From: Phocaeicola oris
GTDB taxonomy: Bacteria > Bacteroidota > Bacteroidia > Bacteroidales > Bacteroidaceae
Length of the DNA: 64,000 nucleotides
Assembly (NCBI RefSeq): GCF_021295095.1
Contig: NZ_JAJLQX010000001.1
Location: forward strand, 124,001-188,000
Direction: 5' to 3'
Positions 8,011 through 61,247 of the stretch are shown here, one piece after another. The notes beneath the pieces are model-generated. The model did no database searches. It had not been told where the DNA came from and saw only the letters and a list, made by a program, of their open reading frames with translations. The translations under genes and the position numbers were made by a program. Each line of letters begins with the position of its first letter. The stretch's first letter is position 1.

Positions 8011-8102
8011 AGGTGTACCACGTGCGTGAGACAAGTGTATCACGCAGGTGGCGCATGTTGTTCACGCACGTGGTACACTTGTCTCACGCACGTAGTACAC
8101 CT
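8011..8102. repeat. 22-bp-pitch palindromic array forming a 29-bp hairpin
   Basis: Four units of exactly 22 bp (8011, 8033, 8055, 8077), each with a CACG..CGTG-type dyad core, plus a few trailing bases. The ends form an inverted repeat of 29 bp with a single mismatch (8011-8039 against 8074-8102; outermost bases AGGTGTAC / GTACACCT) around a 34-base loop. It lies between the divergent HU-like gene and atpD, and downstream of the likely HU promoter, so it would be transcribed in the HU leader. It shares the pitch, not the sequence, of the other arrays in the window. Confidence 0.85.
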
Positions 8103-8114
8103 GAATTGTTTATA

Positions 8115-8122
8115 CAAATATA
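8115..8122 (-). promoter_or_regulatory. TAnnTTTG promoter box for HU-like gene
   Basis: On the minus strand the bases read TATATTTG, a full match to the Bacteroidetes -7 element. Transcription would start near 8109 and run through the 22-bp array into the HU-like gene. Confidence 0.5.
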
Positions 8123-8163
8123 AACGATATATGCATAAAAAGCAAATATTATATAGATAAGAA

Positions 8164-8217
8164 TACCTTTGTCATCATTGATAGCAAACGAAAGTATAAG
8201 TCATATCAATGATGGCA
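8164..8217 (+). promoter_or_regulatory. Possible promoter box overlapping a 14-bp dyad
   Basis: TACCTTTG at 8164-8171 matches the -7 element. It abuts an inverted repeat, TGTCATCATTGATA (8170-8183) against TATCAATGATGGCA (8204-8217), with one mismatch and a 20-base gap. This could be an operator or the start of a leader or small RNA; no ORF of note follows before atpD. Apart from this dyad and the atpD box, the stretch 8123-8471 shows nothing I can name. Confidence 0.35.
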
Positions 8218-8390
8218 TACAAACTGTATATATGATTTTTTACCCTATCCGAAATTGATAGAATGCATAGGAATGCTAAAAGATAAAAACAAATTTAAAA
8301 ACGTATCCTGCTTTTTCCACATATTTAAAGGAAAAATTCATTTTTGGCTAAAAAAAACAGCTCATCTTCGTTTTAATTGTAGAATATTTC

Positions 8391-8398
8391 TAACTTTG
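8391..8398 (+). promoter_or_regulatory. TAnnTTTG promoter box for the atp operon
   Basis: TAACTTTG followed by CG, 73 bases before the atpD start codon, matches the Bacteroidetes -7 consensus exactly. It is the nearest such box to the operon. Confidence 0.65.
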
Positions 8399-8471
8399 CG
8401 AGATATGAATTAAAAGCGATCCAAGGATTGTTTAGATTGGAAACTATTAAATTTAATAATAAATTACGCTT

Positions 8472-9998
8472 ATGTCACAATTAATTGGGCATATATCTCA
8501 GGTAATCGGACCGGTTGTGGATGTGGTCTTTACGGGAGATAACATTGATTCAGAGATGCTTCTTCCTCGTATTCATGATGGACTGACGTGTAAGCGCCCG
8601 GACGGGAGAATGTTGATTCTTGAAGTACAACAGCATATTGGTGAAGATATGGTTCGTGCTGTTGCTATGGATAGTACCGACGGTTTGAAACGCGGCTTGG
8701 AAGTTTCTCCAATGGGACAGCCTATTACAATGCCTGTTGGAACCCAAATCAAAGGTCGATTGATGAATGTAGTGGGTGAAGCGGTTGATGGAATGAAGCC
8801 TCTCAGTAAGGAAGGCGCGCTTCCTATTCACCGTGAACCTCCAAAATTTGAGGAATTAGCTACCACTCAGGAAGTTTTATTCACAGGTATCAAGGTTATC
8901 GATTTGTTAGAGCCTTATGCCAAAGGTGGTAAGATTGGTTTGTTTGGCGGTGCCGGTGTGGGTAAAACCGTGTTAATCATGGAACTTATCAATAACATCG
9001 CGAAGGCCAATAATGGTTTTTCTGTTTTTTCAGGTGTAGGGGAACGTACGCGTGAGGGAAACGATTTGCTTCGTGAAATGATTGAATCCAGTGTTATCCG
9101 TTATGGCGAAGACTTCAAAAAGAGTATGGAAGAAGGGAATTGGGATCTCTCTAAAGTAGATTACGATGAGATAGCCAAATCTCAGGCAACTTTAGTATAT
9201 GGTCAGATGAATGAGCCTCCCGGCGCACGTTCTTCTGTCGCGTTATCAGGTTTAACTATAGCAGAGTCGTTCCGTGACGGCAAAAGTGGCGATGCGGACG
9301 CGCCTCGTGATATATTGTTCTTTATTGATAATATATTCCGTTTCACTCAGGCAGGTTCTGAGGTATCAGCTCTGTTAGGTCGAATGCCATCAGCCGTAGG
9401 TTATCAGCCTACATTAGCGACAGAGATGGGACAGATGCAGGAACGTATTACTTCAACAAAGAACGGTTCAATCACTTCTGTTCAAGCTGTTTATGTGCCT
9501 GCCGACGACTTAACCGACCCGGCTCCGGCAACGACTTTTACTCACTTGGACGCAACAACCGTATTGAGCAGAAAGATTACCGAATTGGGTATTTATCCGG
9601 CTGTCGATCCTTTGGATTCAACATCACGTATCATGGACCCGAATGTTATCGGTAAAAAGCATTACGAGACGGCACAGCGTGTTAAGCAAATTCTGCAGCG
9701 CAACAAGGAATTGCAGGATATTATTGCCATTTTAGGTATGGACGAGTTGTCGGATGAAGACAAGACAACTGTTAATCGTGCTCGTCGCGTACAGCGATTT
9801 TTATCACAACCATTCCACGTTGCCGAGCAGTTTACCGGAGTTCCCGGCGTACTTGTATCTATTGAAGATACTATTAAAGGTTTCAATATGATTTTAGATG
9901 GAGAAGTCGATGACCTTCCCGAGCAAGCATTCCTGAATGTAGGTACTATTGAGGATGCCATTGCCAAGGGCAAGAAGTTGATGGAAGCATCTAATTAA
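8472..9998 (+). CDS. atpD: F1Fo ATP synthase subunit beta
   Basis: The 508-residue catalytic beta subunit of the F1 head. It has the Walker A loop Gly-Gly-Ala-Gly-Val-Gly-Lys-Thr (about residues 158-165), the Gly-Glu-Arg-Thr-Arg-Glu-Gly-Asn-Asp catalytic loop containing the catalytic Glu (about 193-201), and the DELSEED-region equivalent Asp-Glu-Leu-Ser-Asp-Glu-Asp. The slightly long length and an insertion around residues 215-235 (Phe-Lys-Lys-Ser-Met-Glu-Glu) are usual in Bacteroidetes. It is the first gene of the nine-gene operon 8472-15646; having beta and epsilon ahead of the Fo genes is the Bacteroidetes order, not the E. coli one. Confidence 0.98.
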
Positions 9999-10010
9999 AA
10001 ATGTAAAGTT

Positions 10011-59605: not shown

Positions 59606-59657
59606 AAACAACTTCATGAATTCACCCACGAAAAGACAAAAAATATCTTTTCTAAAT

Positions 59658-60278
59658 TTAGTAACCGAATGGAGTCTCACGCCCTTGATTCACCTCAATG
59701 CGAATACCAAATTTGCCATTATCCGATTTCATTTCGAAAGCACCTTTGAAGTTGTTGCGTTGCCATGGAAGTACTCCCGGATCGAATACTTTATATCCAT
59801 CGGCATTATACTGACCGTAAGTTGTCAGTTTCAATCCGTTAGACAAACGAAATGTCGCGCTTTGTAAAGAAGTAGGAGAGTGGTATTGATTCAGACCGCT
59901 TGAACCGTATAAACTGTGCATGGAATAGTCACGTCCGAATACAGTATGCGTATCTACTTTATCGTAGATGGTTTCCTTTCGGAAATAGATGGGGCTGTTT
60001 TGATTCGAAACAGAATAAACCGGCAACATCTCGTGCAGAGTGAGAGGAGAGATGAGTTGCATTTGTCGAGGTGCTAATATCTTATTATCCAATAGAAAGC
60101 CATCATTTAACTCCGTTACGCCTTCCAGTTCTTTTATTAAATTGCGCGAATCTATATCGTCGGGTATAATAATTTCTGCGTTATTCTTTGTTAATGTGGA
60201 ATCATTCTTTACGGGATTCTGTGCCAAAAGCCCCGATGAAATGGAACAAAACAACAAAAGAAGAATTATATTTTTCAT
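59658..60278 (-). CDS. Secreted hypothetical protein
   Basis: A 206-residue protein with a signal peptide (about residues 1-18, ending Leu-Leu-Ala-Gln), a low-complexity start (Asn-Asp-Ser-Thr-Leu-Thr) and a beta-rich body with several Tyr-Gly and Leu-Thr-Thr-Tyr-Gly segments; it ends Glu-Thr-Pro-Phe-Gly-Tyr. The upstream in-frame extension to 60602 runs through the divergent lipB gene and is not real, and the promoter box at 60356-60363 supports the start at 60278. No family recognised. Confidence 0.75.
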   Translation of the reverse strand: MKNIILLLLFCSISSGLLAQNPVKNDSTLTKNNAEIIIPDDIDSRNLIKELEGVTELNDGFLLDNKILAPRQMQLISPLTLHEMLPVYSVSNQNSPIYFRKETIYDKVDTHTVFGRDYSMHSLYGSSGLNQYHSPTSLQSATFRLSNGLKLTTYGQYNADGYKVFDPGVLPWQRNNFKGAFEMKSDNGKFGIRIEVNQGRETPFGY

Positions 60279-60355
60279 TTTAATATATCGTATTATATAT
60301 AGATTCGGAAATAGAATGAATGGTATCGGATTCCAAATCCTTCTTCCGAGCTTTT

Positions 60356-60363
60356 CAAAGTTA
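60356..60363 (-). promoter_or_regulatory. TAnnTTTG promoter box
   Basis: On the minus strand TAACTTTG followed by AAAAG, 77 bases before the ATG at 60278. Confidence 0.6.
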
Positions 60364-60426
60364 ATGTTTTTTTCTTGAGATGCCATACAACTTTTATTCT
60401 TTTTATTTTTCATTGTATTTATTACA

Positions 60427-60434
60427 TAATTTTG
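60427..60434 (+). promoter_or_regulatory. TAnnTTTG promoter box for lipB
   Basis: TAATTTTG followed by CTTCC, 30 bases before the lipB ATG and divergent from the box at 60356-60363. Confidence 0.6.
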
Positions 60435-60464
60435 CTTCCTTTGCCCGAAAAATAAAGTTTGATA

Positions 60465-61118
60465 ATGAAAATTGAAAATTGGGGAACAGTTCCTTATGCC
60501 GATGCATGGAACAGACAGAAGGATTTGTTCAGTGAATTGATTGATGCAAAACTCACAGGAAAACCATACACCAACCGGATGATTTTTGTAGAACATCCGC
60601 ATGTTTACACTTTGGGAAAGAGTGGTAAAGAAAAGAACATGTTATTGAATGAGAAGCAATTGGAAGCTGTTGGTGCTCAGCTCTATCATATTGATCGTGG
60701 TGGAGACATCACATATCATGGTCCCGGCCAACTTGTTTGTTATCCCATTCTTAATTTAGAAGATTATAACTTAGGGTTACGCGAATATATTTATTTACTG
60801 GAGGAAGCCGTCATTCGGGTTTGTGCTTCATACGGCATAGTTGCCGGGCGTGTAAAGGGCGCAACAGGCGTATGGATCGCTATCGGAACAAAGACTGAAC
60901 GGAAAATTTGTGCCATCGGCGTACGTGCCAGTCACTTTGTTACGATGCACGGATTGGCATTAAACGTGAATACCTATTTACGATACTTCGGATACATCAA
61001 TCCATGTGGTTTCATTGATAAGGGAGTTACTTCCATAGAAAAAGAAATCGGGCATTCTATCCCTTTGGAAGAAGTTCGTTTACGCTTACAAGTTGAGTTG
61101 ATGAACCGGATAAAGTAA
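60465..61118 (+). CDS. lipB: Octanoyltransferase LipB
   Basis: A 217-residue enzyme moving octanoate from acyl carrier protein to lipoyl domains. Motifs: Arg-Gly-Gly-Asp-Ile-Thr-Tyr-His-Gly-Pro-Gly-Gln (about residues 74-85), Gly-Arg-Val-Lys-Gly-Ala-Thr-Gly-Val-Trp (the catalytic-lysine region, about 133-142) and Asn-Pro-Cys-Gly-Phe with the catalytic Cys near residue 183. The start is the ATG at 60465; the TTG six bases earlier is not needed. Lipoylated targets include GcvH, the partner of the gcvP gene nearby, and 2-oxoacid dehydrogenases. Confidence 0.95.
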   Translation: MKIENWGTVPYADAWNRQKDLFSELIDAKLTGKPYTNRMIFVEHPHVYTLGKSGKEKNMLLNEKQLEAVGAQLYHIDRGGDITYHGPGQLVCYPILNLEDYNLGLREYIYLLEEAVIRVCASYGIVAGRVKGATGVWIAIGTKTERKICAIGVRASHFVTMHGLALNVNTYLRYFGYINPCGFIDKGVTSIEKEIGHSIPLEEVRLRLQVELMNRIK

Positions 61119-61159
61119 ATCTGTTATCTTATTATATAAGTTTTTTATGATGATGAACT

Positions 61160-61247
61160 AAGCACATCTCAATTGAGATTAACACGTATCTCAATTGAGA
61201 TGTGCATGAATCACAGTTGAGGTGCGATCGAATCACGCTCGTGATTA
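61160..61247. repeat. 22-bp-pitch palindromic array, four units
   Basis: Units begin at 61160, 61182, 61204 and 61226, each 22 bp. Units 1 and 2 share the perfect palindrome ATCTCAATTGAGAT; unit 3 has ATCACAGTTGAGGT and unit 4 the palindrome ATCACGCTCGTGAT. CACATCTCAATTGAGAT in unit 1 is the exact reverse complement of bases 61188-61204. It lies in the convergent gap between lipB and the CPBP protease. Pitch and dyad design match the other arrays, sequence does not. Confidence 0.85.

Follow-up and report, generated by a model that had tools for sequence, protein, structure and literature searches.

Dispersed ladders of palindromic 22-bp units in the intergenic DNA of Phocaeicola oris: candidate markers or insulators of chromosomal domains

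Introduction

A 64-kb stretch of the Phocaeicola oris chromosome (C11:124001-188000 of the 2.98-Mb assembly G000, which comprises 50 contigs; 37.6% GC), hereafter called the window, carries a family of short intergenic arrays in which imperfect palindromes succeed each other at a pitch of 22 bp. The pitch is nearly invariant despite high divergence of the units, the arrays are regularly spaced along the chromosome, and arrays of the same geometry built from other letters recur in related genomes. These features speak for a structural element of the chromosome and against random debris of repeats. The explanation favoured here, to which somewhat less than an even chance is given, is that the arrays are palindrome ladders that act at the DNA level, may mark or insulate chromosomal domains, and are partly dispersed by miniature inverted-repeat transposable elements (MITEs). 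The arrays had been noticed in a preliminary description made from the letters of the window; the palindromic build of the units (18+4 bp), the MITE arms of IS982 type at about one third of the arrays, the recurrence in other species and the regular spacing go beyond that description.

A review of the E. coli nucleoid counts the nature of the barriers that separate bacterial supercoil domains among the open questions (PMC6907758). Sequence-recognisable, regularly spaced elements that recur with other letters would make this question testable in a major gut genus. Moreover, a repeat family in which only the geometry is conserved can escape sequence search. No description of fixed-pitch palindrome ladders or of their spacing in Bacteroidaceae was found in excerpts from the open-access literature (including PMC5771137, PMC2267715, and PMC10969869; subscription papers and preprints lay outside the search), and no name for the arrays was met there, in line with the earlier description.

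Detection and number of the arrays

The sample for array counting consisted of the window and 40 further stretches of 20 kb, 864 kb in total or 29% of the genome, and an array was called where the sequence matched itself at lag 22 in at least 44 of 66 positions. When the window was scanned at lags 6-60 with a cutoff of 46/66, solely lag 22 (six places) and its multiple 44 (four places) appeared, and 20 Markov shuffles of the window gave no place at any lag; the excess of 22-bp periodicity is thus confirmed. At 44/66, the scan recovered the same seven clear arrays that had been reported before, with starts at 8010, 20340, 25158, 31786, 41246, 50974, and 61163. The whole sample holds 62 arrays of 4-8 units (mean 5.4, about 119 bp), near the 4-7 units noted in the window. 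Extrapolation gives about 214 arrays in 2.98 Mb, and genome-wide there are 206 exact matches to a 14-mer taken from the main unit (reversed pattern 0); the earlier reading of a dispersed family holds, at about two hundred copies.

Lowering the threshold from 44 to 40 gains only three arrays, which is why the arrays are regarded as a discrete class. A best-lag scan of the same sample at a higher threshold gave lag 22 at 50 places, lag 44 or 66 at seven, lag 41 or 42 at four, and lag 12 at one. According to a home-made gene caller, 58 of the 62 arrays lie in gaps between genes, two at stretch ends, and two overlap open reading frames (ORFs). A repeat protein was rejected, the arrays being intergenic and their pitch of 22 bp not divisible by 3, and clustered regularly interspaced short palindromic repeats (CRISPR) were rejected since the palindromes are separated by 4-bp linkers only, with no unique spacers; on both points the earlier reading holds. 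An Rfam search at gathering score returned RNase P and tRNA alone in the window and rRNA and tRNA alone in seven further loci, with no match to an array.

Pitch and anatomy of the units

For the pitch measurement, 12-bp cores were scored singly by a position matrix derived from units of the same arrays, and distances between neighbours were taken up to 60 bp with the spacing left free. Neighbouring cores lie exactly 22 bp apart in 225 of 232 cases, in agreement with the fixed pitch first described; the other spacings are 27, 32, 43 (two), and 44 (three), with none of 20, 21, 23, or 24 bp. With the core score lowered to 3 within the 62 arrays, 239 of 252 spacings equal 22, and the same four values are again absent. 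An 8-bp insertion reported at 31803 turned out to be a diverged unit that keeps the 22-bp phase.

Between units at a distance of 22 bp, differences are found at 4.2 of 10 linker positions and 2.0 of 12 core positions (335 units kept, those scoring below 6 being excluded from the divergence and strand analyses). The MITE right arms described below show 0.134 insertions or deletions per substitution at 21% divergence, a ratio obtained by aligning 10 copies in pairs under a single gap penalty. At this ratio, length changes of the order of a hundred would be expected in the arrays, and no 1-2-bp step occurs among the 232, with the caveat that unit diversity may partly predate duplication.

Each unit is an imperfect 18-bp palindrome, with arms of about 7 bp and a centre of 4 nt, followed by a 4-bp linker. 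In the best three units of an array, on average 15.9 of 21 positions pair; permutation of the 22 columns lowers this to 11.1 (95th percentile 14). In 61 of 62 arrays, a distance of 11 bp separates the two strongest symmetry centres, which is what palindromy combined with a 22-bp repeat requires, so that the ladder has a symmetry centre each 11 bp and a unit each 22 bp, about two helical turns. Based on their cores, the units are classified as A (TCATNCGNATGA), B (TCACNNNNGTGA), C (CACGTGCGTG), and D (TCTCAATTGAGA), and in several arrays A and B units are mixed in one phase. Four positions of the core letters T.A[TC].CG.[AG]T.A are fixed at 92-97%; conservation of the unit is letter-specific, as at a protein site. 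In the pairing analysis (354 of 374 units kept, those scoring below 5 being excluded), covariation clearly exceeds independence at pair j=2 alone, with a smaller excess at j=0, 7, and 8. Core information amounts to 11.6 bits in the 40 arrays without recognised MITE arms, 13.8 bits in 12 arrays with partial arms, and 11.8 bits in the 10 best preserved, where it is lowered because B units are mixed in.

Chromosomal spacing and gene context

The spacing analysis covers this genome and a second species, G007. In 13 contiguous segments, 50 intervals between arrays have a mean of 12.0 kb, a minimum of 4.4 kb, and a coefficient of variation (CV) of 0.49. Five null models of 1000 draws each, in which real gaps were drawn by length, by class, or uniformly, gave a CV of 0.86-0.88 and 11-13 intervals below 4.4 kb; the data contain no such interval, and none of the 1000 draws of any null matched them. 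The arrays of this genome stand at regular distances of about 10-12 kb, and the histogram of intervals peaks at 9-12 kb, with 18 against 5.8 expected. The held-out contigs were searched incompletely with a model (150 candidates scored of 249 found), and among the matches listed 32 intervals have a minimum of 6.3 kb (P 5e-5 against an exponential).

Arrays of different kinds also keep their distance from each other. Within 6 kb of the 14 non-A arrays there is no A array, compared with 8.1 expected by circular shift, and within 6 kb of the 22 arrays with MITE arms there is no arm-less array, compared with 9.9 expected. This mutual spacing between unit types lends support to the earlier proposal that all eight arrays of the window belong to one class. 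In G007, where two unit families were followed with 0-1 mismatches, the places listed show no interval below 8.3 kb among 57, with 10 below 8 kb expected, and no cross-type pair below 8 kb against 5.2 by circular shift (P 0.002).

Several observations concern the surroundings of the arrays. In the sample, one strand of most arrays is rich in either G-T or A-C (up to 21 vs 0). The G-T strand agrees with the GC skew of the segment in 39 of 60 cases (contig coherence P 0.12), and replication polarity was not adopted as an explanation. One 40-kb region (L067-L068, G000:C10:1-40000) has no array, is nearly all coded on one strand, and has a GC skew of -0.20; 10 of its ORFs were scanned, and several belong to glycosyltransferase or other polysaccharide-synthesis families.

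MITE arms and an IS982-type element

Alignment of array flanks revealed two arms, the right one about 155 bp and the left one about 120 bp long, both ending in a common terminal repeat, TAACGTGAGTTCGATGAA. Hidden Markov models (HMMs) trained on 10 right and 6 left copies gave 17 right and 18 left hits in the sample at E <= 0.01, with none in the reversed control; 16 and 15 of these, respectively, adjoin an array, the training copies included. Flank scans skipped arrays near stretch ends (within 260 bp or 200 bp). Recognisable arms thus stand beside 22 of the 62 arrays, about a third. This HMM count was preferred to a clustering of flanks by blastn, which had linked 37 of 62 arrays and was set aside as background gaps also matched each other in 35 of 101 cases.

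The terminal repeat has 44 matches genome-wide at up to two mismatches (reversed pattern 0). At up to five mismatches it lies correctly oriented within 450 bp of nine of the 62 arrays, a stringency at which it is not distinctive (52 matches in the sample, shuffled motifs giving a mean of 32 and a maximum of 66). In the same genome it stands before a transposase frame whose N-terminus matches the model NF033520 transpos_IS982 with 28.9 bits (E 7.8e-7), below the cut-off of 130. Two of six end-paired elements are flanked by 3-bp direct repeats, candidate target-site duplications. The trait that defines a MITE, namely a short non-coding element with terminal inverted repeats common to an autonomous insertion sequence (IS), is found in a minority of the arrays.

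Additionally, traces of the IS itself were seen in several places. At L001:1193-1844, a MITE right arm and a short array remnant are fused to part of the IS982-type element, all within one terminal-repeat pair with ATT on both sides. The terminal repeat also occurs at bases 106-127 of contigs C16, C19, C23, C28, C29, C32, and C34; with the repeat this close to the start (about 110 bp) in seven contigs, the IS982-type element probably breaks the assembly. Five exact 18-base copies of the repeat on contigs C1, C2, C6, C8, and C12 of G043, a genome from another family of the order, suggest spread of the IS between families.

Features of the window

The arrays and arm remnants of the window are as follows.

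8011..8104, no strand: 22-bp array of C-type units (CACGTGCGTGGTAC...); predicted fold one long hairpin, DNA fold z -8.6
15754..15785, no strand: eroded array, two cores 20 bp apart, under the lag threshold
20372..20486, no strand: 22-bp array, A-type (TCATCCGCATGA core), in a convergent gap; lag scan
25184..25337, no strand: 22-bp array, A-type, flanked by an outer-membrane-barrel gene and tRNA-Arg; lag scan
31654..31771, plus strand: MITE left-arm remnant adjoining the 31803 array; left-arm HMM E 8.9e-6
31803..31940, plus strand: 22-bp array, A-type, units in phase; lag scan
31941..31977, plus strand: weak MITE right-arm remnant; HMM E 0.04 in the whole sample
41266..41394, plus strand: 22-bp array, A-type, with ends AAAGTGATACGTAT...ATACGTATTGACTTT; lag scan
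41400..41458, plus strand: MITE right-arm remnant; HMM E 1.9e-5
50997..51126, plus strand: 22-bp array, A-type, in a convergent gap; lag scan
61160..61250, no strand: 22-bp array of D-type units (ATCTCAATTGAGAT); lag scan

The right-arm remnant at 31941..31977 reaches E 4.4e-18, in the flank set only, when scored with a model that includes the end of the last unit as well. The eroded array, first placed at 15732, has two cores, at 15754 and 15774, the second scoring only 2.3. Directly beyond the 25184 array, the minus strand carries the genes for tRNA-Arg and RNase P RNA (window:25387-25962). A 22-bp direct repeat of two copies, by count not an array, lies at window:22847-22888, directly upstream of the outer-membrane-barrel gene at 22945. 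A first search for a relative with the outer-membrane-barrel protein found none.

The same geometry in other genomes

The closest named AtpG is that of P. abscessus CCUG 55929, with 70% identity. The sample of other species is non-random: most stretches were chosen near atpG or near 14-mer matches, or arbitrarily, and sampling of G007, G082, and G002 was increased once they had shown ladders. A search for three-unit ladders with 17 or more Watson-Crick pairs out of 21, made in 1.54 Mb of 13 other Phocaeicola genomes, found 14 at pitch 22 and seven at its harmonic 33, compared with 0-3 at each of the other pitches from 18 to 44. The pattern AAACGYNNNNRCGTTT at 22 bp was found 19 times in G082 and eight times in G007, with no match of the reversed control in either, and 10 times (control 2) in a set of ten Bacteroidaceae and Bacteroides metagenome-assembled-genome loci; P. 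abscessus gave 2 (control 4) and G029 gave 0 (control 1). Other units show the same pitch, always with a reversed control of 0: GTTTYCCNNNNGGRAAAC 12 times in G007 and G082, GTGAA-N8-TTCAC three times in G011 and G065, and a GTCCCAY palindrome three times in G002. Genome-wide, two AAACG units at 22-bp pitch occur 256 times in G082 and 223 times in G007 (reversed pattern 0).

In G029, arrays of mixed palindromes of about 90 bp also have a pitch of 22 and are invisible to the lag scan, and the strict Watson-Crick ladder search finds at most one place there; long imperfect arrays with lags of 87 and 90 were seen at L122:15162-15826 of this genome. P. abscessus has 22-bp arrays with a different unit, and at L034:13427-13848, L097:15051-15283, and L103:14730-14990 arrays with pitches of 41 and 43 (others 82-86), near four helical turns. 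In one case (L021 from 12439, L032:11372-11619), a 41-bp array of this species occupies the gap between transporter and response regulator that is orthologous to that of the 20372 array of the window, so that one gap can hold arrays of different pitch in two species. Five other families (92 kb) and G043 (280 kb) gave no ladder or lag-22 array at the set thresholds, apart from one weak ladder.

Explanations of the arrays

If the arrays are domain ladders, their geometry would be kept by a dimeric DNA-binding or nucleoid protein, or by a wrapping enzyme such as gyrase, loading in neighbouring positions on one helical face. The mean array length of about 119 bp (5.4 units) is near the length wrapped by gyrase. 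Each ladder might then form a barrier to supercoils or mark a domain; within one supercoil-diffusion length a single site would be useful and a second nearby would not, from which even spacing would follow. New ladders would be supplied by MITE transposition and tandem duplication and retained by selection on pitch and position. More broadly, Bacteroidaceae may carry an unnamed architectural element defined by geometry and not by sequence, namely palindromes with a pitch of two helical turns, realised by any of several sequence families at near-regular intervals of about 10-20 kb, and marking or insulating topological domains, a generalisation that is offered tentatively.

A selfish MITE with an internal minisatellite, comparable to the BrickBuilt repeats discussed below, could account for the arrays without a host function: an IS982-type transposase would have moved it, and arm-less arrays would be old copies. 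For such an origin speak the terminal repeat that the genome's IS982-type element carries too, the arm hits that nearly all adjoin arrays, and the 3-bp direct repeats at two of the six end-paired elements. However, the 225 of 232 steps free of length drift despite the divergence of the units, the similar conservation of cores where arms are unrecognised, the mutual avoidance of arrays with and without arms, the regular spacing, and the same geometry with other units elsewhere make it an unlikely account. The basis for looking beyond a decaying MITE is that substitutions occur without change of length, that the core is kept without arms, that the arrays form a discrete class, and that geometry recurs and spacing is regular. 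The spacing might instead be set by target immunity of the transposition system or by exclusion through resident arrays, which would do nothing else. Exclusion below about 4-8 kb is indeed the most consistent feature of the intervals, but the peak at 9-12 kb exceeds simple exclusion. Moreover, as exclusion also holds between different unit families, target immunity would need one mover common to them all; target immunity is not known for IS982, and this account is considered rather improbable.

The arrays might also act in RNA, where combs of hairpins at 3' ends would stabilise mRNA or terminate transcription. The seven window arrays have predicted single-strand folds (DNA parameters) with z of -2.5 to -8.6, convergent gaps are somewhat enriched, and in tandem gaps the sense-strand sum is 150 for G-T against 108 for A-C. 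Counted by array, however, the 27 tandem arrays include 14 with more G-T than A-C on the sense strand and 12 with more A-C than G-T, and in other species the figures are 72 vs 58; hairpins under wobble selection were rejected, there being no clear sense-strand bias and covariation well above independence only at j=2. Furthermore, divergent gaps hold arrays too, and terminator-like hairpins recognised by eye at about 15670 and 20170 already separate the gene end from the array. A role in RNA is considered very improbable. Clusters of operators for a sequence-specific regulator would agree with the four nearly fixed core positions; with some 214 loci by extrapolation and several unit families per genome, this is hardly to be expected and ranks lowest among the explanations weighed.

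Several points weigh against the domain-ladder explanation. Target immunity of a transposition system could space elements as well. The eroded array at 15732, outside the 62-array set, has a 20-bp step instead of 22, and arrays with lost pitch are under-counted since detection used the 22-bp lag. The pitch is not universal: it is 21 in G002 and some others, AAACGYNNNNRCGTTT at 21 bp occurring 10 times in G002 (reversed control 1) and five times in a mixed set (0), and 41 and 43 are found too in P. abscessus. Within the unit, pairs j=1 and j=6 pair below chance and j=4 near chance, so that a pure hairpin model is weak, and by eye AT- and GC-rich centres seem to alternate per 11 bp, which is not the 10.5-bp phasing of simple wrapping. 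Among the matches listed, the CV of 0.79 in held-out contigs is not significantly low (P 0.10), as may be expected because the list is thinned; among the places listed in G007, the CV of 0.93 is not reduced (P 0.38), and exclusion alone is seen. The nulls for the held-out contigs, G007, and the cross-type tests were not built from real gaps. Finally, gap preference is mild, arrays standing in 18 of 68 gaps between convergent genes, in 14 of 85 between divergent genes, and in 28 of 250 between tandem genes as delimited by the home-made gene caller.

Comparison with known systems

A match to a described MITE or REP (repetitive extragenic palindrome) class had been envisaged from the start; the MITE layout resembles BrickBuilt without being identical to it, and REP membership fails. 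The following comparisons rest on excerpts of the papers cited. BrickBuilt of Porphyromonas gingivalis consists of tandem 23-nt units inside a MITE with leader and tail, in 19 copies in one strain, and 22- and 41-nt repeats are also cited for that species (PMC4596501). The arrays share with it tandem units without spacers, intergenic position, a MITE setting, IS-type terminal repeats, and predicted stem-loops (PMC4596501). In contrast to BrickBuilt, the unit here is 22 bp, the copies number about 214, and the terminal repeat is TAACGTGAGTTCGATGAA rather than of the type GAGACC...; identity with BrickBuilt was rejected on the grounds of unit length and terminal repeat. Furthermore, only about a third of the arrays here adjoin MITE arms, and they fall into several unit families, keep an almost invariant pitch, and are regularly spaced. 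Other elements of that source are closer at their ends: MITE239 starts with ACGTGAGTTCGAT and MITE700 ends with TCGAACTCACGT, as does the terminal repeat here, and ISPg3 is one letter off; elements of the 236 and 700 types are apparently without uptake of mini- or microsatellites (PMC4596501). ISPg3 is placed in the IS5 family there, whereas the transposase beside the repeat here matches an IS982 model.

REP sequences and bacterial interspersed mosaic elements (BIMEs) are likewise intergenic clustered palindromes, present in hundreds per genome with mosaic unit types, and BIMEs are reported to bind gyrase (PMC2817692, PMC3733652). Unlike them, the arrays have a fixed 22-bp pitch and regular chromosomal spacing. 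Membership in the system of REP and REP-associated tyrosine transposase (RAYT; Y1 transposase, PF01797) was rejected, as PF01797 has no match in G000 (95% complete) and the tag GTAG/CTAC/CGTC/GACG occurs in none of 335 four-base linkers. PF01797 is present in three of 16 Phocaeicola genomes, and linkers resembling GTAC or GTAG occur in one unit family of G007, G082, and G002.

In E. coli, a BIME impedes supercoil diffusion and is named as a candidate barrier, topological domains measuring 10-400 kb (PMC6907758). The arrays resemble such BIME insulators in scale and in candidate function; only their scale and spacing fit a topological insulator or gyrase site. Domain barriers are described as randomly placed in that review (PMC6907758), whereas the arrays of P. 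oris are regularly placed.

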